DNA of 12,481 bases from assembly GCA_934702165.1 (NCBI GenBank), contig CAKUYG010000051.1:1-12481 (forward strand). Reading direction: 5' to 3'. Shown in pieces: positions 3 through 12,481 of the stretch. The DNA is from an uncultured Bacteroidales bacterium. Lineage in GTDB: Bacteria; Bacteroidota; Bacteroidia; Bacteroidales; UBA932. The notes under the pieces were generated by a model. That model ran no database searches, had not been told where the DNA came from, and saw only the letters and a list, made by a program, of their open reading frames with translations. The translations under genes and the position numbers were made by a program. Position 1 is the stretch's first letter. The number at the start of each line of letters is the position of its first letter.

Positions 3-698
3 CCTTACAAGGAGAGGGCTCTGATGCCAGAGGATTCTTCGGACAGTGTAAGGGTGCTTGCTCTCCCGATGCTGGACTCTCTCAGGCAGGAGGAACTCAA
101 ACGTGCATTTGCATTCGCCCGCAAGCATTCGCTCCTGATCCGTGTGTGTCTTCCTGCCACACGGCCAGAACTGGAAAGTTTTGTAAAGAGCCATTCTGTA
201 AAGCCGCTGTTGTATCTTGATTCTCTTGGACTCCTGAAGGGTGATGTGCTGCTCTGCGGCTGCACTCTGATGGATGCCGAGGATTGGCGGACGGCCGCGA
301 GGCGTGGGGTAACGGTCATTCACTGCCCGTCCAGCGATCTCGCTTCTTCTTCTGTGAGGTTTCCCTATGAAGAAGCCGTCGGCTCGGGTGTGAGGATCTG
401 CCTGGGGGGACGGGGCAATACTATCACGGAAGAGATCAAGGCGGCGCGCCTGCTCTCATCTATGGGTCATGCTCCGCTTCCGTACGGGACCCTTCAGGAC
501 TGGGCGACAAAAAACGGCGCCGATGCTTTTGGCATCGACGCCGGAGAGATTACCTACGGAAAGTTTGCGGACGCTGTCCTCGCTTTGCCGGGCACTGCTG
601 ATGCCCCGGTAGAGCCGTCCTCTGTGAGGTACGTCTTCTGCCGGGGACAGATATTATTTGACTTCCGGTCTCATCACAAGTTCGATGAAGTTGCCTGA
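3..698 (+). CDS. Amidohydrolase-fold protein with degenerate active site, 5' end outside window
   Basis: This is the C-terminal part of a protein resembling the chlorohydrolase/MtaD-like amidohydrolases, which deaminate or dechlorinate purine- or triazine-like substrates at a metal centre. The family pattern is readable: a helix plus strand ending in LLIRVCLP, then PLLYLDSLGLL, VLLCGCTLMD, a well-kept VIHCPSSDLASS, GVRICLGGRGN, and a closing composite-domain strand VRYVFCRGQILFD. Numbering from the ATG at 24, the usual metal or catalytic residues are missing: the HxxE position reads R40 to L43, the AHxV His is G79, and the GTDG Asp is R130. Only H100 of the HCP motif remains. The frame is open to the left edge (P-Y-K-E-R-A-L precede Met1), and homologues have an N-terminal barrel half here, so the true start lies outside. 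Probably a non-catalytic or repurposed homologue; the HxH segment near the N-terminus cannot be inspected. Substrate unknown. Confidence 0.75.
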   Translation, partial: PYKERALMPEDSSDSVRVLALPMLDSLRQEELKRAFAFARKHSLLIRVCLPATRPELESFVKSHSVKPLLYLDSLGLLKGDVLLCGCTLMDAEDWRTAARRGVTVIHCPSSDLASSSVRFPYEEAVGSGVRICLGGRGNTITEEIKAARLLSSMGHAPLPYGTLQDWATKNGADAFGIDAGEITYGKFADAVLALPGTADAPVEPSSVRYVFCRGQILFDFRSHHKFDEVA

Positions 699-3467
699 AG
701 ACAGCAGCTCTTCTGCCGCTTTCTTGACATCTTCCGGTGAGAGCGCCTCTATGGCCGCCTCGTATTCAGCCACATAGTTGATACCGTATTTCTCGGCATC
801 CTGAAGGGCTGAACTCCACCATGCGTTGCGGAGTTTGTTCTCCGGGACGGTCTTCTCGAGGTTCTTCTTGGCCTTGTCGAACTTCTCGGCGTCAGGGCCG
901 TTCTTCGCAAGGTCTTCCATCCCCTTGACGGCGAGCTCACGAAGCTTGTCGCACTGCTCCTCATTGGTCTGGAATGCTACCTGGAGCAGGCGCATCTCGT
1001 AAGGCTGGTGAGTAAGCTGTGAGACTGCGCTTGCCCCGTAGGTGCCGCCTTCCTCTTCACGGAGGGTCTCAGTGTAGATCATGTTGAGGATGTAGCTGAG
1101 GGCTGTGTAGTCCACTTCTTCCTTGACGCTGTATGGTTTGTTGTCCTTGTAGAGCTGGACTACCGTCACCATAGGGGTCTGCATCGGGGTGCGGAAGTCG
1201 TTGACCTTGCGTCCGTCGATGATGCCGTCGTTGCGGTATTTCCAATTCGTGGCTTTTCTGCCCTTGGCAAGAGACCCGGCATATCTCTCGATGAGCGGCA
1301 GGATGGTGTCAGTGTCGAAGTCTCCTACGACTACAAGAGTGGCCCCGGCTGCGTCTTTGAAGAGCCTGCGATAGTTCTTTTCGAGAGTCTGAAGGTTAGC
1401 CTTGGCGAGCACGTTCTTGTCGAGGGTGAAGTCACGCGGACTGTCGTAGATGGTCTTCGCGAGCTGCTTCTGGAGCTGCCAGTTCGGCTGGTTTTCAAGG
1501 TTCGGGAGCACATTCTCGATCTGGGTGATGCCGTTGGCGTACTCATCAGGATCGAAACGTGGAGAGGTGAAATAGAGGTACATCAGCTGGAAAGCCGTCT
1601 CCAGGTCTTTGGTGGTGCTGGTGGCGCTGACGCCATGGGTGTATTCCCCGATGTAAGGGCTTACAGCCAACTGTTTGCCTGAAAGCATCTTCCTGACGGT
1701 TGTGGCAGGGAAAGCGGCTACACCGGTGTTCTGCTGGTAGAGGGACCAGATGTTGTCCTCGAAAGAGTAGAGGTCCTCGTCGGAGATGAGGCTCTGGCCG
1801 CCTCTCTTGAAGATGTTGAAGTTGATTTTGTCTTTCTCCCTGTCTGAAGGCAGGAGGATGACTTTCACTCCGTTCTTGAGGGTGAGCACTTCGGATCCGT
1901 AGAGTCCGGCCGCGGTCTTTTTGATCTTGCTGCCCTTGAGGGTTGAAGGGTCGAGGAAGGCTGTAGGGATCTCCTCTCCGGCTTCCTGGGTGTACTCGGC
2001 GTTCTCAACCTTGTCGATGATGGCCTGCACCTGCTCGGCTTCAGGATGGGATGCCCCTTCTTTTTCAGGGCCGGAGTAGATGACAACCATATTGTTGCGG
2101 GTGATGAGCTGCTGTGCGAGCTGGTTGAGGATGCTTGTGTTGAACTGCGCCATCAGGGCCTGCACCATCTGGTATTCGGTCTTCGGGTCCATGTAGGAGT
2201 AGTTGTCGAAGAAGTTCATTATCATCGGCATCACGAACTCTGAGTTCTTGCGGCTGTCTGCCTTGTTGGCTGCGGCTTCGTACTGTGAGAGGACTTCGTT
2301 CTTGGCGCGCTCGAACTCTGCGTCAGTGAATCCGAAGCGGTGCATCTTCTCGATTTCGGTGAGCATGGACTCGAATCCCTGGAGGGCTGCACCCTCTTTG
2401 CATGAGACCTCACCATAGGCCACATCCATGGTCTCGCAGACGTTGGTGATTCCGAATCCGGCGTAGAGGAACGGGGCGTCAGGTTTTGCGCTGATGTCGT
2501 TGAAGCGCTCGGCCATGATGGTGCTTATGAGGCTCTTGGCCACTTCGGTCATCAAGCCGACGGCAGTGCTGTTGAGCTCCTCCGGTTGGGCAGCGCTCTT
2601 CCAATATACTTCGAATGTGGAGGTGGTGGTCTCCGGGTCGGTGATGATGCCGATTACAGGCTTGTCGTTGTCCGGAATCGTTATGACATCTTTCGCTTTA
2701 GGGTTTTCGGCGGCCGGAATGTCGGCGAATGTCTTCTTGATCTTTGCCTCCACCTCATCTACATTTATATCTCCTACCACGATAAGGGCCTGCATGTCAG
2801 GACGATACCATGTGTGATAAAAGTTGGTGAGGCTCTCCGGCTTGAAGTTCTTGAGGTTGTCTTCGCTTCCTATGATCGTACAGCCTGCATATTTGGTGTC
2901 ACCGTACAGGTAAGGAAGCGTCTTCTCATGGAGTCTCCATGATGCTGTGTTGCGAGAGCGCTTCTCTTCGAGGATGACCCCGCGCTCCTTGTCTATCTCC
3001 TCCGGATCGCAGGTCACGAAGTGGGAGTAGTCGTGCATGATGAGCAGGCAGGTGTCCACTACCGTAGGACGGACAAGCGGGATGTTGTTGAGCAGGTAGA
3101 TGGTCTGCTCGACTCCTGTGGAGGCGTTGACGTTGCCTCCGAAAGAGGCTCCGATGCTTTCAAGCCAGTTGAGGATGTTCTTGCCGGGGAAGTTCTTGGT
3201 CCCGTTGAAGCACATGTGCTCGAGGAAATGCGCCAGACCGTCCTGGTCCGGGGTTTCCTGGATGGCTCCGACATTTGTGGCCAGGTAGAATTCGGCTCTT
3301 TGGGCCGGCTTGTCATTGTGTCGGATGTAGTAGGTCAGACCGTTGTCGAGTTTGCCTACTCTTGTCTCCGGGTCGTTTGGCAGCTGTGGCAGCTGCTGCC
3401 CCTGTCCGAAACACAAAGCAGCGGCACCAAGAAGTACCGCTGCTGAGATTAAGAATTTTTTGACCAT
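654..3467 (-). CDS. Secreted tandem M16 (pitrilysin/insulinase-type) zinc peptidase
   Basis: A 937-residue zinc metalloendopeptidase of family M16, predicted periplasmic. Residues 1 to about 22 form a signal peptide (MVKKFLISAAVLLGAAALCF core). The first half (about 36-180) is the catalytic M16 domain, with the inverted zinc motif HFLEH at 80-84 and the third ligand E161 in DKERGVILEE, 77 residues after the last His as in pitrilysin. An M16 C-type domain follows (about 195-375). The second half repeats the fold from about 524, lacks HxxEH, and ends with the family's GGTYGA element at 807-812, which helps shape the active site. The length is normal for the fused-half form of Bacteroidota. The family cuts peptides inside a closed clamp; the natural substrate is not evident. 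The ATG at 3467 is chosen because the signal peptide begins there. It has its own promoter-like element in the 85-bp gap behind nifJ. Its last 45 bp overlap the convergent amidohydrolase gene. Confidence 0.95.
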   Translation of the reverse strand: MVKKFLISAAVLLGAAALCFGQGQQLPQLPNDPETRVGKLDNGLTYYIRHNDKPAQRAEFYLATNVGAIQETPDQDGLAHFLEHMCFNGTKNFPGKNILNWLESIGASFGGNVNASTGVEQTIYLLNNIPLVRPTVVDTCLLIMHDYSHFVTCDPEEIDKERGVILEEKRSRNTASWRLHEKTLPYLYGDTKYAGCTIIGSEDNLKNFKPESLTNFYHTWYRPDMQALIVVGDINVDEVEAKIKKTFADIPAAENPKAKDVITIPDNDKPVIGIITDPETTTSTFEVYWKSAAQPEELNSTAVGLMTEVAKSLISTIMAERFNDISAKPDAPFLYAGFGITNVCETMDVAYGEVSCKEGAALQGFESMLTEIEKMHRFGFTDAEFERAKNEVLSQYEAAANKADSRKNSEFVMPMIMNFFDNYSYMDPKTEYQMVQALMAQFNTSILNQLAQQLITRNNMVVIYSGPEKEGASHPEAEQVQAIIDKVENAEYTQEAGEEIPTAFLDPSTLKGSKIKKTAAGLYGSEVLTLKNGVKVILLPSDREKDKINFNIFKRGGQSLISDEDLYSFEDNIWSLYQQNTGVAAFPATTVRKMLSGKQLAVSPYIGEYTHGVSATSTTKDLETAFQLMYLYFTSPRFDPDEYANGITQIENVLPNLENQPNWQLQKQLAKTIYDSPRDFTLDKNVLAKANLQTLEKNYRRLFKDAAGATLVVVGDFDTDTILPLIERYAGSLAKGRKATNWKYRNDGIIDGRKVNDFRTPMQTPMVTVVQLYKDNKPYSVKEEVDYTALSYILNMIYTETLREEEGGTYGASAVSQLTHQPYEMRLLQVAFQTNEEQCDKLRELAVKGMEDLAKNGPDAEKFDKAKKNLEKTVPENKLRNAWWSSALQDAEKYGINYVAEYEAAIEALSPEDVKKAAEELLSSGNFIELVMRPEVK

Positions 3468-3552: not shown

Positions 3553-6500
3553 TTATTTTCCTGCAAGCCTCTTGTAGTTCTCGTACCTGAGCTTTGCGAA
3601 CTCTTCGGTCTTCTCGAGGAGCTCGGTGGCATGGTCAGGGAAGAGCTTGTAGAGGGATGCGAACCTCACCTCGCCCTTGAGGAAGTCCTGGAATTTGGTC
3701 CAGTCAGGCTCCTTGGAATCAAGTGAGAACGGATTCTTGTCTTCAAGCATAGGGTTGTACCTGTAGAGGTGCCAGTATCCGCACTCGACGGCAAGCTTCT
3801 CCTCCTTCTGGCTCAGACCCATGCCGGCCTTGAGGCCGTGGTTGATACAAGGTGCGTAGGCGATCACCAGGGACGGTCCGTCGTAAGCCTCGGCCTCCTT
3901 GATGGCGTTGAGGTACTGAACCGGGCTCGCTCCCATGGCAACCTGTGCCACATATACATATCCATAGCTCATGGCCATCATGCCGAGATCCTTCTTGCGG
4001 ATCTTCTTGCCGGAGGCTGCGAATTTGGCGATGGCACCTGCAGGGGTGGACTTGGATGACTGGCCGCCGGTGTTGGAATATACCTCGGTGTCGAGAACGA
4101 GGATGTTGACATTCTCGCCTGAAGCGAGCACATGGTCAAGTCCGCCGTATCCGATGTCGTAGCTTGCGCCGTCACCGCCGATGATCCACTGGCTGCGTGC
4201 CGGGATGTACTGCTTGAGCTTGAGCAGGCTCTGGCAGGTATCGCAGCCGCAAGCCTCCATGAGAGGAACGAGCTTGTCGGTCACTTCGCGGGTCACTGCG
4301 TAGTCCTCCTTGTTGTCAAGCCACTTCTGGAAGAGGGCCTTCATCTCATCGGAGCAGCACTCGCAGCTCAGGCCCTTGGTCATGAGCTCGCCCACGGTCT
4401 TGCGGATGCGCTCTGAACCGAGTCTCATACCGAGACCGAACTCGCAGAAGTCCTCGAACAGGGAGTTTGCCCAAGCCGGTCCGTGTCCGTGAGAATCTGT
4501 GCAGTATGGTGATGACGGGAATGAAGCTCCGTAGATTGAAGAGCATCCGGTCGCGTTGGCGATCATCATATGGTCGCCGAAGAGCTGGGTGATGTTTTTG
4601 ATGTACGGAGTCTCGCCGCAGCCTGCACATGCGCCGGAGAACTCGAACAGAGGCTGTGCGAACTGGGAGTTCTTCATATTGGCCTTAGGATCTCCGACAG
4701 TCTTGTATCCCACCTTGGTGTTGAGATAGTCGAAGTTGTCCTGCTCGGCAGTGTTGTCCATATACGGCTGCATCGAGAGGGCCTTGTCCTTGGCGAGGCA
4801 GACATCGACACAGTTGCCGCATCCCGTACAGTCTGAGACTGAGATTGAGATCGCGTACTTGTAGTCCTTGAGGTTGGCCTTGCCGTCTGCAAGCTTGATG
4901 CCTGCCGGGGCTGCGGCTGCCTGCTCAGGTGTGAGAAGGAACGGACGGATGGCAGCGTGAGGGCAGACGAATGCACAGCTGTTGCACTGGATACATTTGT
5001 CGGCATCCCATACAGGTACGTTGACTGCCACGCCTCTCTTCTCGTATGCGGCTGTGCCGGCCGGCATGGTGCCGTCCTTGTATGGCAGGAACGCGCTTAC
5101 CGGGAGGCTGTCGCCACACTGTGCGTTGACCACATCGGCGATCTCCTTGACGAACGGAGTGGCGAGGCGGTTGGCGTTGTGGTTGACGAACTTGGCGTTG
5201 ATGTTTGCCCACTCGGCAGGAACCTTGACCTCGATGTACTCACCACCGCGGTCGATTGCGGCGTAGTTCATGTTTACGATGTTCTCGCCCTTCTTGCCAT
5301 AAGACTTGAGAGCCGCATCTTTCATGTACTTGACAGCGTCATCGACAGGGATGATTCCGGAGATGCGGAAGAATGCGCTCTGGAGAATGGTGTTGGTGCG
5401 TCCTCCGAGGCCGATCTCGGCTGCGATCTTGGTGGCGTTGATGATGTAGAGCTTGATCTTCTTGCGCCCGATCACAGACTTGACGAAGTCAGGGATCCTC
5501 TCTTTGGTCTCCTCTTCGTCCCAGAGGGAGTTGAGAAGGAGGCTGCCGCCTTCCTTGATGCCCTTGAGCACATCGTATTTCTCGAGGTATGAAGGTACAT
5601 GGCAGGCCACGAAATCAGGAGTGTTGACAAGGTATGGGGCCTTGATCGGCTCTTTTCCGAACCTGAGGTGAGAGCAGGTGTATCCGCCTGACTTCTTGGA
5701 GTCGTAATCGAAGTATGCCTGGCTGTAGAGGTCGGTGTGGGTACCGATGATCTTGATGGTGTTCTTGTTGGCGCCGACGGTACCGTCAGAGCCGAGTCCG
5801 TAGAACTTGCACTCGGTGGTGCCCTTCTTCACGATGGAAACCTCACCCTTGGTAGGGAGGCTCTTGAAGGTGACGTCATCGGTGATGCCGATGGTGAAGT
5901 CGTTCTTAGGCTCCTTGCGGTCGAGGTTGTCGAACACTGCGATGATCTGGGCAGGGGTGGTGTCCTTTGAGGAAAGTCCGTAGCGGCCGCCGATTACGAG
6001 AGGCGCGTTGTCCTTGTCCTGGAAGAGGGCCTTGATGTCGAGGTAGAGTGGCTCCCCGAGCGCTCCCGGCTCCTTGGTCCTGTCGAGGACTGCAATCTTC
6101 CTGACGCTCTTAGGAAGCACTTTGAGAAGATACTTCTCGGAGAACGGACGGTAGAGGTGTACGGTGATGACACCGTATTTGCGTCCGCGGGTGGCGAGGT
6201 AGTCCACTGTCTCCCTTGCTGTCTCGGTGACTGAACCCATGGCCACGATGATGCATTCGGCATCCGGTGCTCCGTAGTATTCAAATGGACGGTACTGGCG
6301 TCCTGTCAGCTCGCCGATCTCTCCCATATAGCGTGCGACGATGTCCGGAACTGCTTCGTAAACCTGGTTGCGGGACTCCACAGCCTGGAAGTATACGTCT
6401 CCGTTCTGGGCGGTGCCGCGGGTCACAGGCGCCTCAGGGGTGAGTGCGCGTGCGCGGAAGTTGTCCAGTGACTTCTGGCTGACCATCTTCTTGAGGTCCT

Positions 6501-7071
6501 CCTCGTCTATGGCCTCGATCTTCTGGATCTCATGTGAGGTGCGGAATCCGTCGAAGAAGTGGAGGAAAGGCACTGAAGCCTTGATGGCGGAGAGGTGTGC
6601 CACAGCCGCAAGATCCTGAGCTTCCTGTACGGAACTTGATGCGAGCATGGCGAAGCCGGTCTGGCGGCATGCCATCACATCCTGATGGTCTCCGAAGATG
6701 GAAAGGGCGTGGGATGCCAGGGCGCGTGCTGATACGTGGAAGACAGCCGGGAGCATCTCGCCGGCGATCTTGTACATATTAGGAATCATCAGGAGGAGAC
6801 CCTGGGAGGCGGTGTAGGTGGTGGTCAGGGCACCGGCCTGGAGGGAACCATGGACAGCGCCGGCAGCGCCTGCCTCACTCTGCATCTCGGTGACTTTGAC
6901 AGTCTCTCCCCACAGGTTCTTCTTGCCGTGGGCAGCCCATTCGTCAATGTTCTCTGCCATTGTCGAAGATGGCGTGATAGGGTAGATGGCGGCGTGCTCG
7001 CTGAAAAGGTAAGCGATGTTTGACGCGGCCTGATTACCATCACAGGTGATGAATTTCTTTTCTTTAGCCAT
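3553..7071 (-). CDS. nifJ: Pyruvate:ferredoxin (flavodoxin) oxidoreductase
   Basis: A complete 1172-residue single-chain PFOR, cytoplasmic. It converts pyruvate and CoA to acetyl-CoA and CO2 and passes electrons to ferredoxin or flavodoxin, a central step of anaerobic fermentation. The N-terminal domain has IYPITPSST near 29-37, typical of the pyrimidine-binding and substrate side. The middle carries the gamma and EKR-type regions. Two 4Fe-4S motifs follow: CIQCNSCAFVC (C693, C696, C699, C703) and CTGCGNCVDVC (C748, C751, C754, C758). The thiamine-diphosphate domain has the proximal cluster ligands C815 and C818 (CAGCGE), C843 (ATGCSS) and C1075 (CINHG), plus GGDGASYDIG (965-974) and EVYSNTGGQ (996-1004). 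Length and domain order are normal for the family. Unusual are C903, C905, C906 and C941, C943, C946, placed where I do not expect family cysteines. The ATG at 7071 is supported by the family N-terminus (MAKEKKFITCDGN). The gene lies 80 bp behind the pectinase gene and has its own -7 element. Confidence 0.98.
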   Translation of the reverse strand: MAKEKKFITCDGNQAASNIAYLFSEHAAIYPITPSSTMAENIDEWAAHGKKNLWGETVKVTEMQSEAGAAGAVHGSLQAGALTTTYTASQGLLLMIPNMYKIAGEMLPAVFHVSARALASHALSIFGDHQDVMACRQTGFAMLASSSVQEAQDLAAVAHLSAIKASVPFLHFFDGFRTSHEIQKIEAIDEEDLKKMVSQKSLDNFRARALTPEAPVTRGTAQNGDVYFQAVESRNQVYEAVPDIVARYMGEIGELTGRQYRPFEYYGAPDAECIIVAMGSVTETARETVDYLATRGRKYGVITVHLYRPFSEKYLLKVLPKSVRKIAVLDRTKEPGALGEPLYLDIKALFQDKDNAPLVIGGRYGLSSKDTTPAQIIAVFDNLDRKEPKNDFTIGITDDVTFKSLPTKGEVSIVKKGTTECKFYGLGSDGTVGANKNTIKIIGTHTDLYSQAYFDYDSKKSGGYTCSHLRFGKEPIKAPYLVNTPDFVACHVPSYLEKYDVLKGIKEGGSLLLNSLWDEEETKERIPDFVKSVIGRKKIKLYIINATKIAAEIGLGGRTNTILQSAFFRISGIIPVDDAVKYMKDAALKSYGKKGENIVNMNYAAIDRGGEYIEVKVPAEWANINAKFVNHNANRLATPFVKEIADVVNAQCGDSLPVSAFLPYKDGTMPAGTAAYEKRGVAVNVPVWDADKCIQCNSCAFVCPHAAIRPFLLTPEQAAAAPAGIKLADGKANLKDYKYAISISVSDCTGCGNCVDVCLAKDKALSMQPYMDNTAEQDNFDYLNTKVGYKTVGDPKANMKNSQFAQPLFEFSGACAGCGETPYIKNITQLFGDHMMIANATGCSSIYGASFPSSPYCTDSHGHGPAWANSLFEDFCEFGLGMRLGSERIRKTVGELMTKGLSCECCSDEMKALFQKWLDNKEDYAVTREVTDKLVPLMEACGCDTCQSLLKLKQYIPARSQWIIGGDGASYDIGYGGLDHVLASGENVNILVLDTEVYSNTGGQSSKSTPAGAIAKFAASGKKIRKKDLGMMAMSYGYVYVAQVAMGASPVQYLNAIKEAEAYDGPSLVIAYAPCINHGLKAGMGLSQKEEKLAVECGYWHLYRYNPMLEDKNPFSLDSKEPDWTKFQDFLKGEVRFASLYKLFPDHATELLEKTEEFAKLRYENYKRLAGK

Positions 7072-7151: not shown

Positions 7152-8216
7152 CTACAGTTTCGCGATTTCGCTTGCGGCGAGCAGGTAGCAGCCCGTGCCG
7201 AAGTCCTCGAAGTCCGGAATTCTGTCCCAGGTGGCGGGTTGGGCCTCTTTCGGTTCCTTGCCGGAGCCTTGTGAGTAGCCGATGAACCCGTTGTCGTGGA
7301 TACAGATCCGGTTCAAGGCGCTCCAGGCCCTGACGGCTGCGGGGCGGAAGACGGCTGCATCTAGCCTTCCGGTGCGCACGCCCCATGCCAGTCCGTAAGT
7401 GAACAGTGAGGTGCCTGTAGCCTCCGGGCCTCCGAAATCCTCGGGGTCGGCAAGGGAGCAGTTCCATGTGCCGTCTTCGCGCTGCACCTTGACCAGGGCT
7501 TCGCACATGGCCTTGAAATCCGCTTCGTAGACGGCCCTGTGTGGGTCATTGGCGGGAAGTTCATCGAGGACACGCACGTATGCGGCCACGACCCAGCCGT
7601 TGCCGCGACTCCAGTAGCAGTTTTTGCCTGCCGGAGTCTTGTAAGGCGGGCAGAAGTTCTTGTCGCGCCACCACAGGCCTTCGCCTTCGTTGAAGAACCG
7701 GTCGCGGGCCCACTTGTACATCTTCCACGCCTTCTCGAAGTACTCCGGCTTCCCGGCGGTGACGCCGTACTTGACAAGCACCGGCATCCCCATCTGTATG
7801 GCGTCGATCCATGTCCAGTCAGCATCAGACTCCCCGGTGGAGATGAGGTTGTCCATGCATTTGATGACGTTCTCCATCATCACGGGGTCCTTGCAGATGC
7901 GGTACATGTCGATGTATGCCTGGGCGCAGCAGTAATTGTCGGCGTTGCGTGTCAGGAAATTGCCTCCGCGCATGTTCCAGCCGAACTTCTCTCCCCAGCT
8001 CATGGTGTAGTCTAGATACTCCTGCTGAGGATCGACCCCGTAGAGGGCCAGAAGGCCTTCATAATAGACGGCGCGTGTCCAGATGTTTCCTTCGTATACC
8101 TTGCGGCGTGACGGGAACGGCACGGCCTTGCCGGGATCCGCGTATTTGTGCATGAAGTAGGAGTTGACCTTGCGGGCCTGCGCGATGACCGCTTCTTTGG
8201 ACGGGACATCGTAGTG
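7152..8216 (-). other. GH105 unsaturated rhamnogalacturonyl hydrolase module (C-terminal part of the fusion)
   Basis: GH105 enzymes remove the 4,5-unsaturated galacturonyl residue that pectin or RG lyases leave on oligosaccharides, by hydrating the double bond. Residues about 1398-1751 form an (alpha/alpha)6 barrel with family signatures: NIWTRAVYYEGLLALY, RNADNYCCAQAYIDMY, DWTWIDAIQMGMPVL with D1535 at the place of the catalytic Asp of YteR, CYWSRGNGWVVAAYVRVL, DGTWNCSLADP, GGPEATGTSLFTYGLAWG and a terminal DFGTGCYLLAASEIAKL. About 350 residues is the normal length for a stand-alone enzyme, so the module looks complete. It follows the GH106 beta-sandwich (VKLIPV) with almost no linker. Its substrate is the direct product of the PL11 module in the same chain. 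Confidence 0.92.
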
Positions 8217-11200
8217 CACCGGTATCAGCTTGACTTCGGAGCAGAGCCCGGACGGGTCAGTCTCCCATTTGCCGAAGTCCTTTTCGCGGCCGAGAGTGTT
8301 GATGTTGGCATCCTTGAAGATTCTCCATTTGACTCCGCGCCTGTCGTAGTCTGCAATCCTGTTGGACTGGAGATTGGTGACATACACGTCAAGCAGATTG
8401 ATGCCGGGCTTGAGATACTTGCCGACATCGATCCTGAACGGAACGCACCATGCCGTGCCGATTTCTTCCCCGTTTATGAACACGCGTGCGCTCTCCCGCA
8501 CATCGCCGAGGTCAAGTATCCAGCTGTCAGCCGCTTTCGGGTCTGTCATCGGTATGGCGGAGGAGTACAGGGCGGTGGCGAAGTTGATCTTGGCGTCAGG
8601 GCAGTTCTTGAGCTTGGTCCAGTCCATAGGCTTGTCCGTGAAGAAGTTGCCATTGATCTGCGGGTCACTCTGCGGGAATGAGATGTTCCACGCCCTGTCG
8701 ATCGCTATAGGCTCGCCTTCAGCGGCTATGTAGTTCCACTCCGGGGCTTCCACCTGTGTGGGAAAGGTCTTGATGAGCAAGGATTCTCCCGGCTTGAGCT
8801 GGAGGCGGATTTCTGCGCAGCCATCGGAGGAGCGGCGCAGCTGTGCCTTGCCAGAGACTCCGCTGACGGCATCATAGAGCATGGCCGATACGGCCGGCGT
8901 GCCGAGCTTTACCCAGCTGTCCACTTCTTTGCCGTTGAGCATGGCGGCGAAGTAGTTCCAGCCCCCGCATTCGTTGCGGCGGCGTATCATGGAGCCACCG
9001 AAGGCACTGCGGAACTCTTCCGGCAGCATGCCTTCAAGCGCCTTGTCGAGGCTTACGGCTTTTCCGAAGCTTCTGGCTATCTTTCTGAATTCTTTGCGCC
9101 TCGCAGACAGGTCATGCAGTCCCGGCACATCTTTGGGAACATTGCCGATGAAATACACCGGCACTCCGGCCTTTTTCAGCTCCACGAGTCTACGGGCCGT
9201 CTCCACAGGCATGAAACTGCAGGCCGGGACAATCACAGGCTTGTCTATAGCCAGTGTCTGCAACTGATGGTCGGAGATGTAGTCGGCATCATATCCTCGT
9301 GAGGTGATCTCGTTCATCACGGCTTTGAGTTCCGGAAGCTTGCGCCCCATGCTGTGGATGTCGAACATCATGTACGGGGTATCGGTCATGCTGCTCCAGG
9401 CATCGTAGACAGGGAAGTAGAGCAGAAAGTCGGAATCCGGGCTGCCGGCGGTAAGGAAGGCCTGGCAGCGCTCCACATATTTGAATAGTGCCGGCGCGTC
9501 TCTCCACATCCCTCCGGTAGGGGACATGTTGATGGAGGCATAGAACATCCATCCCGGGAATTCCGCCCCCTTCGTGGAGTATGGCGCACCATGGAAATAG
9601 ATGTGGTTTACGCCTGCGGCAAATGCCTGGTCGAGTTCCGGCTTGCACTGGCTGAGCGAGGTGCGGAAATGCTCCGTCATCCATGTCAGAGATTCGCAGG
9701 AGACATATTTGTGGCCTGCCACATGGGCGGCTGACGATGCGAATTTCAGCACTGCCGGGTCGCCGTCGTTAGGTCTGCGGATCGGATCCTGCCGCAGCCC
9801 AGGGATATTGAAGTCGGAGCGGCCGTAAGTCTCGCATTCCGGGATATCCACAGCCGCGTAGACATCCAGAAGGTTGGCCGGGGAGCCGTGGGACTGGTTG
9901 CGCACGAGAGAACCATGGCTGTGGCACCATTCTATCCATGGGTTGATGAAGTTCTCGATCAGAAGATTTCCGAGACACTCACGGTAGTCGGCGATGGCCC
10001 TGTCGTATTCTGTGGCTTTGGAAGGTTCCGCTTTTTGCGGGAGCTCGGGCTTTGCTTGAGGCGGTCTCGGGCCGCGCCCGCGTTCCTGCGGCTCCGGACG
10101 CATCTTGAGATATGGCACTATGTCGTAGCCATATCTCTCCATGAAGATCTGCGGTAATCTCTCTGTCCAGTCGGCCCCGTACACTTCGTACGAGTCGTTG
10201 AACCAGGTGTGCGGCCACTTGGCTCCGCTTTCCTTGAATGCTTTGTCGAAGCGCTCCAAGTAGACTTTCAGGGCTTCCGGATTGTAGTGGTCCATGACGA
10301 GGCCCTCTCCGCCCGGGGCGGCTCTTTTCACCTTCTGGCCTGTGAGTTCGGTGGAGATTCCCTCCGGGGTGATCTTCATCTTCTTGGCTGCCAGCTCTTC
10401 CGTGATCTGAGGGCCGCCGAACGGCCAGCCTGTGCCGTTGTTGAGGTCGCATTCGAGTCCAAGCCTTTCAGATTCGGAGACAAGGTGCTTGTACATCTTC
10501 ATCCATTCTGGGGAGAGGTAGTCAATGTCGTTCTCCTCATTGCCCTGGACCCCGTAGATGGGGGTGACCTCATATCCTCCTATGCCAGCCTTGGCGAACT
10601 GCTCAAGATTCCAGGTCAGGCCTTCTTTGTCTACGGCGCTGCCGAGCCACCACCAGCGGACAAACGGCTTGTTCTCTACGGTCGGGGTGTACCAGGCTGT
10701 AGGTTGTGGCCTGGATTGCGTCCGAGGGCTTTCCGGCCGCATCGGCGGGCGCTGCCCGCGCGGGTCTGGACGTCCCGGACGCGGAGAACTCTTGACGAGG
10801 ACTGAATCAAGGAGCGCGTCCTCGAGAATCACACCTTTCTTGACTTTGTTGCCCTTGACCACGCTCCCGCGGAATTTGCCGTTCAGGTCGGAACCGAAGT
10901 AGAATCCGGTCTCCGGCGGCTGGTTGTAGCAGACGTTCTCGTTGGCTAGGCTGGTCCTGTATACCGGATCCTCGAGGAAGGTGTGGAAGCGGTATGCGGT
11001 CGGCTCCGTGGAGACATAGAGCCTCAGTTCGGTGTTGTCGGCGGAACGCATGAGTGCCTCTTCTCTCCAGTCGCCGAAGAGGTCTCCTGAGATGCAAGGG
11101 TTGGATTTGCTGCCGTTGATGCTCGATGCGCCCTCGAATATGAAGTAGTCTTCGACCTTGCGGGTCTGAGGGTTGAATTTAAGCACTTTATTGCCGTCCA

Positions 11201-12481
11201 GCAGTTCGCGTGAGAGGTCCCCGTCCCACCAGATGGCGAAGTTCTGGCTGGCCGGCTTCTCTCCGATGCTCTCGCCCTTGTAGTCGCGAAGGGTTCCGGA
11301 GGCGGAGCTCCAAAGTTCCCACCCCGGGTTGGTCGGGTCGATGTCGGCCGCCATGGTGCGTCCCACGTCGATGTTGGACGGGATGCGGAAGTGGAGCTTG
11401 CCGGTGCGCGCATCGGTGAGCGTGGTCCCCACGCCCTTGGTCTCGTGTCCGATCCATATCTGGAGCGCGTCGCTGCCCGGGACCATGGCGCCGATGTGCA
11501 TGGCGTCACCGTGTTTCCAGCCGGTAGTGTAGAGCCCTGTGCCGTCGTGGTCGATGCAGCATGAGCCGTATACGATCTCGTCGCACCCGTCCCCGTCCAC
11601 ATCGGCTACGCGCAGGTTGTGGTTGCCCTGGCCGTCGTAGCCCTTGAGCTCCGGCTTGCTGTGCGAGTCGAAGAACCAGCGGAGCTTCAGGTCCTTGCCG
11701 TCCCAGTCGTAGGCGGCAAGGGTGGCACGGGTGTAGTATCCGCGGCACATCACCACGCTCGGGTGCTCCCCGTCGAGGTATGCTATGGCTGCCAGGTATC
11801 GGTCGGAACGGTTGGCGCGTGTATCGCCCCAGCTGCCGTTCTCCCCGCGTCCCGGCAGGTACTCGATGGTCTTCATGGCCGCGCCTGTGCGTCCGTTGAA
11901 GATGGTGAGGTATTCGGGCCCGCTCATGATGCGGCCCAGGGTGGCCTCGCTGTGCTCCCGGTAGTCGGCCGCCGGATCTCCGATCACCTTGCCGGTGCCG
12001 TCAACGGTGCCGTCGGAGGTCTTCACTACCATCTCGGCGCACCCGTCCCCGTCCAGGTCGTATACCATCATCTGGGTGTAGTGTGCCCCGGCGCGGATGT
12101 TGCGGCCGAGATTCACCCTCCATAGCCGTGTCCCGTCAAGTTTGATGCAGTCTATGAAAACGTCTCCGGTGTAGCCGTTGTGGGCGTTGTCGTGGGCGTT
12201 GGAAGGGTCCCACTTGAGGAAAATCTCATATTCTCCGTCCCCGTCCACATCTCCGATCGAGCAGTCGTTGGGCGTGTAGGTCGCAATCTCCCCGTTTGGC
12301 ATGGTCTGGTCTGCTGGCGTGTCAAGCGGTATGGGGATGTAGCCCTGCGGGGCTCTTGCCGGCAGGGTGAAGCTTCCGCTTCTGAGTCTCCCCGCGTGTG
12401 GGCGCACCTCGTATGTGGCGGCGGCAGGGGAAGGGTTGGAGTCGACAAACCAGCACGCGTCACTGATGGCCTTGCTGTTGA
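7152..12481 (-). CDS. Three-enzyme RG-I degrading fusion: PL11 lyase, GH106 rhamnosidase, GH105 hydrolase (5' end outside window)
   Basis: One frame without stops runs from the right edge to the TAG at 7152. Residues here are numbered from the GTG at 12407, which is internal: 24 further in-frame codons reach the edge and continue the lyase fold. The order is PL11 (up to about 530), a Pro/Arg linker (541-570), GH106 (about 571-1397) and GH105 (about 1398-1751), each entered separately below. All three act on rhamnogalacturonan-I, and motifs associated with catalysis or substrate binding are kept in the two hydrolase modules. The natural start and signal peptide lie outside the window. An extracytoplasmic site is expected for PL11 and GH106, but it cannot be shown. 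No internal signal peptide, start-like gap or frame change is seen at either junction, which argues for a genuine fusion rather than adjacent genes. There is no C-terminal sorting domain or anchor. GC appears higher than in nifJ or the peptidase gene. The gene lies 80 bp upstream of nifJ on the same strand with no hairpin terminator between them. Confidence 0.93.
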   Translation of the reverse strand, partial: NSKAISDACWFVDSNPSPAAATYEVRPHAGRLRSGSFTLPARAPQGYIPIPLDTPADQTMPNGEIATYTPNDCSIGDVDGDGEYEIFLKWDPSNAHDNAHNGYTGDVFIDCIKLDGTRLWRVNLGRNIRAGAHYTQMMVYDLDGDGCAEMVVKTSDGTVDGTGKVIGDPAADYREHSEATLGRIMSGPEYLTIFNGRTGAAMKTIEYLPGRGENGSWGDTRANRSDRYLAAIAYLDGEHPSVVMCRGYYTRATLAAYDWDGKDLKLRWFFDSHSKPELKGYDGQGNHNLRVADVDGDGCDEIVYGSCCIDHDGTGLYTTGWKHGDAMHIGAMVPGSDALQIWIGHETKGVGTTLTDARTGKLHFRIPSNIDVGRTMAADIDPTNPGWELWSSASGTLRDYKGESIGEKPASQNFAIWWDGDLSRELLDGNKVLKFNPQTRKVEDYFIFEGASSINGSKSNPCISGDLFGDWREEALMRSADNTELRLYVSTEPTAYRFHTFLEDPVYRTSLANENVCYNQPPETGFYFGSDLNGKFRGSVVKGNKVKKGVILEDALLDSVLVKSSPRPGRPDPRGQRPPMRPESPRTQSRPQPTAWYTPTVENKPFVRWWWLGSAVDKEGLTWNLEQFAKAGIGGYEVTPIYGVQGNEENDIDYLSPEWMKMYKHLVSESERLGLECDLNNGTGWPFGGPQITEELAAKKMKITPEGISTELTGQKVKRAAPGGEGLVMDHYNPEALKVYLERFDKAFKESGAKWPHTWFNDSYEVYGADWTERLPQIFMERYGYDIVPYLKMRPEPQERGRGPRPPQAKPELPQKAEPSKATEYDRAIADYRECLGNLLIENFINPWIEWCHSHGSLVRNQSHGSPANLLDVYAAVDIPECETYGRSDFNIPGLRQDPIRRPNDGDPAVLKFASSAAHVAGHKYVSCESLTWMTEHFRTSLSQCKPELDQAFAAGVNHIYFHGAPYSTKGAEFPGWMFYASINMSPTGGMWRDAPALFKYVERCQAFLTAGSPDSDFLLYFPVYDAWSSMTDTPYMMFDIHSMGRKLPELKAVMNEITSRGYDADYISDHQLQTLAIDKPVIVPACSFMPVETARRLVELKKAGVPVYFIGNVPKDVPGLHDLSARRKEFRKIARSFGKAVSLDKALEGMLPEEFRSAFGGSMIRRRNECGGWNYFAAMLNGKEVDSWVKLGTPAVSAMLYDAVSGVSGKAQLRRSSDGCAEIRLQLKPGESLLIKTFPTQVEAPEWNYIAAEGEPIAIDRAWNISFPQSDPQINGNFFTDKPMDWTKLKNCPDAKINFATALYSSAIPMTDPKAADSWILDLGDVRESARVFINGEEIGTAWCVPFRIDVGKYLKPGINLLDVYVTNLQSNRIADYDRRGVKWRIFKDANINTLGREKDFGKWETDPSGLCSEVKLIPVHYDVPSKEAVIAQARKVNSYFMHKYADPGKAVPFPSRRKVYEGNIWTRAVYYEGLLALYGVDPQQEYLDYTMSWGEKFGWNMRGGNFLTRNADNYCCAQAYIDMYRICKDPVMMENVIKCMDNLISTGESDADWTWIDAIQMGMPVLVKYGVTAGKPEYFEKAWKMYKWARDRFFNEGEGLWWRDKNFCPPYKTPAGKNCYWSRGNGWVVAAYVRVLDELPANDPHRAVYEADFKAMCEALVKVQREDGTWNCSLADPEDFGGPEATGTSLFTYGLAWGVRTGRLDAAVFRPAAVRAWSALNRICIHDNGFIGYSQGSGKEPKEAQPATWDRIPDFEDFGTGCYLLAASEIAKL
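8217..10697 (-). other. GH106 alpha-L-rhamnosidase module (middle of the fusion)
   Basis: GH106 enzymes remove terminal alpha-L-rhamnose from pectic chains by inversion in a calcium-dependent (alpha/beta)8 barrel. Residues about 571-1397 show the family opening RWWWLGSAVDKEGLTWNL and KAGIGGYEVTPIYG, then DLNNGTGWPFGGPQI, WFNDSYEV, NQSHGSPANLLDVY, DIPECETYG, YVSCESLTW and VNHIYFHGAPYS. E741 (DSYE) and E905 (SCES) are candidates for the conserved carboxylates, not confirmed by alignment. The C-terminal beta-sandwich SWILDLGDVRESARVFING, GTAWCVPFRIDVG and SGLCSEVKLIPV closes the module. It is shorter than many stand-alone members, which often exceed 1000 residues. A Pro-rich insertion at 769-797 interrupts the region after RYGYDIVPYL. 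The module has no signal peptide of its own. Confidence 0.87.
10017..10103 (-). other. Pro/Lys/Arg-rich insertion inside the GH106 module
   Basis: Residues 769-797 hold eight prolines and seven basic residues, falling between the RYGYDIVPYL and DYRECLGNLLIENF family segments, where a short connection is usual. Its composition resembles the PL11-GH106 linker, although it has more acidic residues (four Glu). Likely a surface loop; its role is unknown. Confidence 0.65.
10698..10790 (-). other. Pro/Arg-rich interdomain linker between PL11 and GH106 modules
   Basis: Residues 541-570 of the fusion contain ten prolines and seven arginines against two acidic residues, with no hydrophobic core. This reads as an extended, basic, probably disordered linker. 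It joins the last PL11 strand (GFYFGSD and a short tail) to the start of GH106 (WYTPTVENKPFVRWWW). Confidence 0.8.
10818..12481 (-). other. PL11 rhamnogalacturonan lyase module (N-terminal part of the fusion)
   Basis: PL11 enzymes cut the Rha-GalA bond of the RG-I backbone by beta-elimination and leave a 4,5-unsaturated galacturonate at the new end. The module shows the family's calcium-binding beta-propeller loops: DVDGDGEYE (53-61), DLDGDGCAE (117-125) and DVDGDGCDE (269-277), with weaker ones at DIDPTN (355-360) and GDLFGDWREE (441-450). Strong family strings include RAGAHYTQMMVYDLDGDG, GPEYLTIFNGRTG, RGYYTRATLAAYDW, GQGNHNLRVADVDGDG, HGDAMHIGAMVPG, NFAIWWDGDLSRELLDGN and NQPPETGFYFGSD, the usual end of the fold. 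The frame outside the GTG (CWFVDSNPSPAAATYEVRP) matches the end of the N-terminal beta-sandwich, so roughly a hundred residues are missing past the edge. Endo or exo mode cannot be told from sequence by eye. Confidence 0.93.

Follow-up and report, generated by a model that had tools for sequence, protein, structure and literature searches.

Background

In Bacteroides thetaiotaomicron, imported rhamnogalacturonan I (RG-I) is cut by the lyases BT4175 and BT4183, the resulting unsaturated ends are removed by BT4174 and BT4176, and the GH106 enzyme BT4145 together with three GH28 enzymes finishes the breakdown, according to the available excerpt of PMC8002723. Multidomain enzymes of the CE12:PL11 type form a second known system, with 50 candidates in CAZy and one described example, CE12-CBM35-PL11, in the accessible part of PMC10483417. 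For family GH106, E461 and E593 of BT0986 are the proposed catalytic acid and base in the excerpt of PMC6828813. Here we describe a DNA stretch of 12,481 nucleotides (called the window) from an uncultured Bacteroidales bacterium (contig CAKUYG010000051.1), in which a single open reading frame encodes a PL11 rhamnogalacturonan lyase, a GH106 alpha-L-rhamnosidase and a GH105-type hydrolase.

In related genomes these modules are distributed over two neighbouring genes. The explanation we favour, with modest confidence, is that an in-frame deletion really took place in one strain and joined the two. A phrase search of the open literature, with subscription journals mostly outside it, returned no papers on GH106-GH105 or PL11-GH106 fusions.

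The fused reading frame

The minus-strand frame comprises 1775 codons without internal stops and is terminated by TAG at 7152-7154. It is still open at position 12479, the edge of the window, and position 12481, given in a previous sequence-only reading of this DNA, likewise marks that edge only. The gene extends past it, and the start codon, the signal peptide and the N-terminal lyase domain lie outside the window.

Pfam profiles were matched by RGL11_C (PL11) at residues 47-533 with 706 bits, covering profile positions 1-485 of 490, by Glyco_hydro_106 with its best stretch at residues 710-1137 (148 bits), and by Glyco_hydro_88, the Pfam model that the GH105-type module matches, at residues 1436-1774 (257 bits). 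Among sequences of the Protein Data Bank (PDB), the PL11 module matches YesW and 4CAG with E-values of about 1e-173 over more than 500 aligned residues, the GH106 module matches BT0986, and the last module matches 4Q88, 5NOA and 4CE7. All three module matches are far beyond chance. That a single open frame holds three RG-I-type enzymes, as proposed by the sequence-only reading, is therefore borne out by the Pfam and PDB matches, and the domain calls on the part of the protein within the window give PL11, GH106 and GH88/GH105 in the order it had stated.

The same reading held that family signatures are kept in each module, and the profiles and the alignments of Glu765, Glu929 and Asp1559 agree with this. 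The window protein satisfies the profile of the RGL11 catalytic propeller; the N-terminal RGI_lyase beta domain (PF18370) is carried by the relatives P0044 and L013, and the corresponding region of the window protein falls beyond the edge. The second module has both the profile and the fold of GH106, and its two glutamates occupy columns that are invariant across 38 aligned sequences. With 1029 bits it stays under the equivalog cut-off of 1300 of the NCBIfam model for BT4145-type rhamnosidases (NF049897) and is not a member; the relative P0002 has 1035 bits.

The (alpha/alpha)6 fold of the last module is nearer to GH105 than to GH88 structures, and the module is probably a GH105-type unsaturated rhamnogalacturonyl hydrolase with predicted activity on unsaturated RG-I oligosaccharides. 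We take Asp1559, in its WIDA motif, to have the catalytic role that we assume for this residue in GH105-type enzymes; D143N is named in the title of structure 2GH4. No SGNH domain was found in the window part of the protein at E <=0.01, which in this part separates it from the CE12:PL11 multidomain enzymes.

Related proteins and loci

The whole frame was searched against about 5.8 billion proteins, with scoring limited to the 7987 candidates that had most words in common with it. From 1134 hits 120 were listed, and their domain classes were counted by hand from the Pfam tags. GH106 and GH88/105 occur in one protein in 68 of them, PL11 with SGNH esterase domains in 48, PL11 with GH106 in two (P0043 and P0045) and other GH106 combinations in two (P0078 and P0079). 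Among the matches listed, the best for the lyase is P0044 (PL11-SGNH-SGNH), with 91% identity over PL11 (33% of the query), and its chain continues from PL11 into two SGNH stretches. The best for the remainder is P0002 (GH106-GH105), with 89% identity over that part and a signal peptide of its own at the start. In a search with P0045 as query, 2 of the 120 proteins listed from 6309 hits have PL11 together with GH106, again P0045 and P0043, and joins of this type are rare in that set.

Scanning genome contigs, we obtained 75 loci, of which 14 are close (L001-L013 and L016). A PL11-SGNH-SGNH gene directly precedes a separate GH106-GH105 gene in ten of these (L001-L007, L009, L010 and L013), an SGNH end lies directly ahead of the GH106-GH105 gene in three (L008, L012 and L016), and L011 begins within GH106 at a contig edge. 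The two-gene arrangement is thus found in 10 of the 10 related Bacteroidales loci where both halves are visible, with GH106-GH105 separately secreted. Modules in the relatives' loci are 72-80% identical to those of the window, the spacing between the two genes is -4 to 11 nucleotides in the five loci measured, and the SGNH domains have sequence matches to YxiM and to the rhamnogalacturonan acetylesterase 1DEO (4e-27).

The distance from PL11 to GH106 is 183 nucleotides in the window (residues 534-594), without a stop, versus 1682-2107 nucleotides in the relatives, with a stop in all ten. The window is without 1.5-1.9 kilobases (kb) of the relatives' locus. This piece takes in the two SGNH esterase domains and the stop of the first gene as well as the start and signal peptide of the second, and with these missing, two products are joined into one. 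As the relatives already carry GH106-GH105 as one gene, that fusion is, judged by sequence comparison, the older one and common to the close relatives, and the sole new link would be the one to PL11.

Downstream of the GH106-GH105 gene, a gene for pyruvate:ferredoxin oxidoreductase (PFOR) lies on the same strand in all 10 loci reaching that far (about 0.1-4.6 kb), adjoining it in L001, L004, L005, L009 and L010 and standing 0.8-4.6 kb off in five others. An M16 peptidase gene was found in six loci (L001, L003, L004, L005, L008 and L013). In L013 the upstream neighbours are like those of a pectin locus, among them a GH2, two GH28 and a PD40 propeller protein. Coordinates of all features are collected in Table 1.

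Table 1. Features of the fused gene and of its downstream neighbours in the window.
Feature	Position	Strand	Basis or remark
Fused open reading frame	7152..12479	-	1775 codons + TAG; 5' end outside window
PL11 rhamnogalacturonan lyase module (RGL11_C), residues 47-533	10881..12341	-	Pfam, PDB and protein matches
Pro/Arg-rich linker holding the junction, residues 534-595	10695..10880	-	PL11-GH106 gap comparison with relatives
39-nucleotide filler within linker, residues 583-595	10695..10733	-	Between lyase-type linker and GH106 start Trp
GH106 alpha-L-rhamnosidase module, residues 596-1420	8220..10694	-	
Glu765, aligned with proposed catalytic acid E461 of BT0986	10185..10187	-	Alignment
Glu929, aligned with proposed catalytic base E593 of BT0986	9693..9695	-	Alignment
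GH88/GH105 unsaturated rhamnogalacturonyl hydrolase-type module, residues 1436-1775	7155..8174	-	
Asp1559 in WIDA motif	7803..7805	-	Aligned with same-motif Asp of GH105-type structures
PFOR, downstream synteny anchor	3553..7071	-	85-93% identical in 10 relatives
M16 peptidase, second downstream anchor	654..3467	-	Present in 6 relatives

The three enzymes had been described as usually separate proteins. For GH106 and GH105 this does not hold among the listed proteins, given the 68 fusions; it does hold in Muribaculaceae and Prevotella loci, e.g. L014, L018 and L067, where the two are separate neighbouring genes, so that the GH106-GH105 fusion is confined to part of the order. It holds as well for PL11, which is separate from GH106-GH105 in all ten loci and is there tied to the two SGNH esterases.

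Open frames of 2436-2492 residues in four genomes (G068, G011, G179 and G157) had suggested natural five-module fusions, PL11-SGNH-SGNH-GH106-GH105. This was rejected, as the four correspond to L013, L003, L006 and L010, each with an in-frame stop between the two genes; the stop codon itself is displayed for L003, L006 and L013.

Several side observations concern the same families and loci. P0086 (1615 residues, 158 member sequences) has the order GH106-GH105-GH28, with one more RG-I enzyme on the GH106-GH105 fusion, and P0079 is a GH97-GH106 fusion of 1473 residues. An SGNH domain follows GH106-GH105 in P0042 and GH106 in P0078, and the site of esterase attachment therefore varies within the group. 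By eye, about 60 residues between GGPQIT and KVKRAAPGG (near 10330-10415 in the window) are present in P0045 and absent from the GH106 modules of this clade. A single frame with the reversed order, GH105 then GH106, is found in a Bacteroidaceae genome from horse faeces (L038, 5615-9352). Past PFOR, L009 holds a Cas9-type gene (RuvC_III, HNH_4, Cas9_a) at 21850-25968, and in the window a tail-to-tail overlap of 45 nucleotides (654-698) is shared by the M16 peptidase gene (-) and an amidohydrolase gene (+) that is truncated.

The junction

The lyase linker of the window matches P0044 through RGQRPPMRP, with one substitution past the PL11 domain. A filler of 39 nucleotides (13 hydrophilic residues) follows, and then WYTPT, which is the start of mature GH106 in the relatives. 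The filler has a hydropathy of -1.96 and is linker-like, being hydrophilic and Pro-rich, which we count in favour of a real deletion.

In 34 of 36 relatives the 13 residues before the first Trp of GH106 have a hydropathy of -0.43 to 0.84 and resemble the end of a signal peptide. The other two, P0019 and P0022, have a hydrophilic spacer of about -2.0 at this place, similar to the filler, and a spacer of this kind in the GH106 gene of the window strain is therefore possible. We also considered a signal-peptide remnant, as short words in common with the relatives' signal-peptide DNA were seen, by eye only. The remnant is not claimed: the best local match of the filler lay off the signal-peptide region in 9 of 9 relatives, with scores of 18-21. 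No exact word of more than 10 nucleotides is shared between the junction and other parts of the window. In P0045 the join appears, by eye, to retain the end of a GH106 signal peptide.

Deletion or artefact

The frame, the modules, their key residues, the gene order of the relatives and the matching downstream genes are the observed basis of the deletion that we favour. An ancestor of this Cryptobacteroides-like bacterium would have carried a PL11 gene ending in two acetylesterase domains of the SGNH (CE12-like) type and, a few bases on, a gene for a secreted GH106-GH105 enzyme. The 1.5-1.9 kb would have been lost in frame, from the Pro-rich linker of the lyase to the end of the second signal peptide, leaving a single product that we infer to be exported via the lyase signal peptide. 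PL11 would cleave RG-I by beta-elimination, GH105 would remove the unsaturated galacturonate after this cut, and GH106 would then remove the exposed rhamnose. The fused protein would act without esterases of its own, both being absent from this gene. The order of steps is that of the sequence-only reading, and it agrees with the B. thetaiotaomicron pathway as far as the excerpt of PMC8002723 describes it.

We count four points for a real deletion: the matching downstream genes, the in-frame join at module borders, the third-position GC content (GC3) at a window width of 150, and the comparable join of P0045 in another lineage. Random pairs of breakpoints which keep PL11 whole, drop the SGNH domains and the signal peptide, and leave GH106 in frame make up about 0.04-0.11% in five relatives, a figure that holds to an order of magnitude and is biased, as the window was chosen for its intact modules. 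At width 150 no sharp GC3 step is present at the join, with 949 of 1475 positions showing an equal or larger step. At widths of 150 and 300 the largest step lies near codon 420, within PL11.

A second set of results weighs against a genuine deletion. PL11, GH106 and GH105 occur together in none of the 120 listed whole-frame matches. A further search used residues 400-1100 as query, to pick up partial genes crossing the join, and had 7994 hits; of the 120 listed, every one has a GH106 tag and none a PL11 tag, and query coverage is at most 79%. The three-enzyme order is also in none of the 75 fetched loci, and the sequence-only reading had counted such an absence from other genomes against itself. 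A genus search covering 400 genomes from the larger group gave some match in 262, and among the matches listed no row crosses the join; a second genus search, started from another centre, recovered these strong matches again (21 of 400 at E <=1e-200) and none closer than 78%. Furthermore, no source of the filler was identified in the window or in the relatives compared, L009 has no M16 gene beyond PFOR, and the flank inside the window is the downstream side only. PL11 GC3 minus GH106 GC3 is 0.097, versus -0.045 to 0.023 in 10 relatives, and the GC3 difference between the PL11 part and the rest was reached in 13 of 5000 shuffles. For width 500, codon 590 shows a step of 0.102, which 94 of 775 positions equal or exceed, and the largest step, 0.112 at codon 542, is close to the join. 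Taken together, the composition evidence on a cross-species chimera is mixed.

The main rival is a chimera from assembly or amplification: the bacterium would have the usual two genes, and their middle would have gone missing in the contig or the library. The higher GC3 of PL11 and the largest width-500 step near the join count for it. So does the join standing alone among the listed matches of the two protein searches and the fetched loci, and in the relatives the lyase linker is rich in Pro and repetitive, a type of sequence that assemblers collapse. The matching downstream genes and the in-frame join at module borders speak against a chimera. Additionally, assembly through shared words (>=21 bases) needs lyase-linker sequence before GH106, where 34 of the 36 relatives are signal-peptide-like. 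This argument is not binding, because P0019 and P0022 carry their hydrophilic spacer there, and it leaves an amplification chimera untouched, as that needs no shared words. We regard a chimera as a substantial possibility, if the less probable one.

The fusion could also be an established and selected three-enzyme protein of a poorly sampled lineage, in which loss of the esterases was adaptive, e.g. on little-acetylated RG-I. The 1775 stop-free codons with three module signatures and conserved key residues are in line with this, as are the module-respecting join and the rare PL11-GH106 (P0045) and GH106-PL11 (P0043) joins elsewhere. No second example is among the matches listed, the closest lyase P0044 runs into SGNH domains, P0002 has its own signal peptide, and a recent neutral deletion would give the same picture. 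We therefore hold an established protein to be very unlikely. That the deletion is real, whether in one strain or as an established protein, is probable overall.

A bolder reading, which we hold to be improbable, is a real and working exported PL11-GH106-GH105 protein. It would make, unmask and trim RG-I chain ends, would have arisen when a deletion exchanged the tethered acetylesterases of the lyase for the exo-enzymes of the next gene, and might have been kept for its fit to little-acetylated pectin. Export, activity and any gain from tethering are predicted, and substrate channelling, raised by the sequence-only reading, is hypothetical.

The sequence-only reading is partly supported: its observation is correct and its interpretation too strong, because GH106-GH105 is ordinary in the relatives, and what remains to explain the link to PL11 is a loss in frame for which there is a single case. 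If real, the fusion is an experiment of nature on the value of tethering consecutive RG-I enzymes, with the relatives as matched control having the same modules in two proteins, and it would show that multi-enzyme CAZymes can arise when one deletion joins adjacent genes. Firmer support exists for the wide occurrence of GH106-GH105 fusion among these gut Bacteroidales.

Comparison with known systems

The nearest system is the two-gene RG-I locus of Cryptobacteroides-like Bacteroidales, which has the same modules and, where the loci reach it, the same PFOR downstream. It differs in having SGNH-SGNH, a stop and a second signal peptide; the window is without all of these, so that its products are joined. 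The lyase gene of the relatives is of an established type, given that CE12:PL11 proteins have already been described: in both, PL11 and domains of the rhamnogalacturonan acetylesterase type are in one protein. The window protein, in contrast, is without an esterase domain and has GH106-GH105 instead.

P0045 (1542 residues, PL11-GH106) and P0043 (1507 residues, GH106-PL11) have PL11 and GH106 in one chain, as in the window. Both are without GH105 and belong to other lineages, and the order in P0043 is reversed. For B. thetaiotaomicron we assume that BT4175 and BT4183 carry PL labels and BT4174 and BT4176 GH105 labels. Within what the excerpted account of that RG-I pathway covers, the kinds of enzymes and the order of steps are those of the window protein. 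The B. thetaiotaomicron enzymes are separate proteins and include three GH28 enzymes, whereas the window protein is without GH28 and would put the first three steps in one chain.

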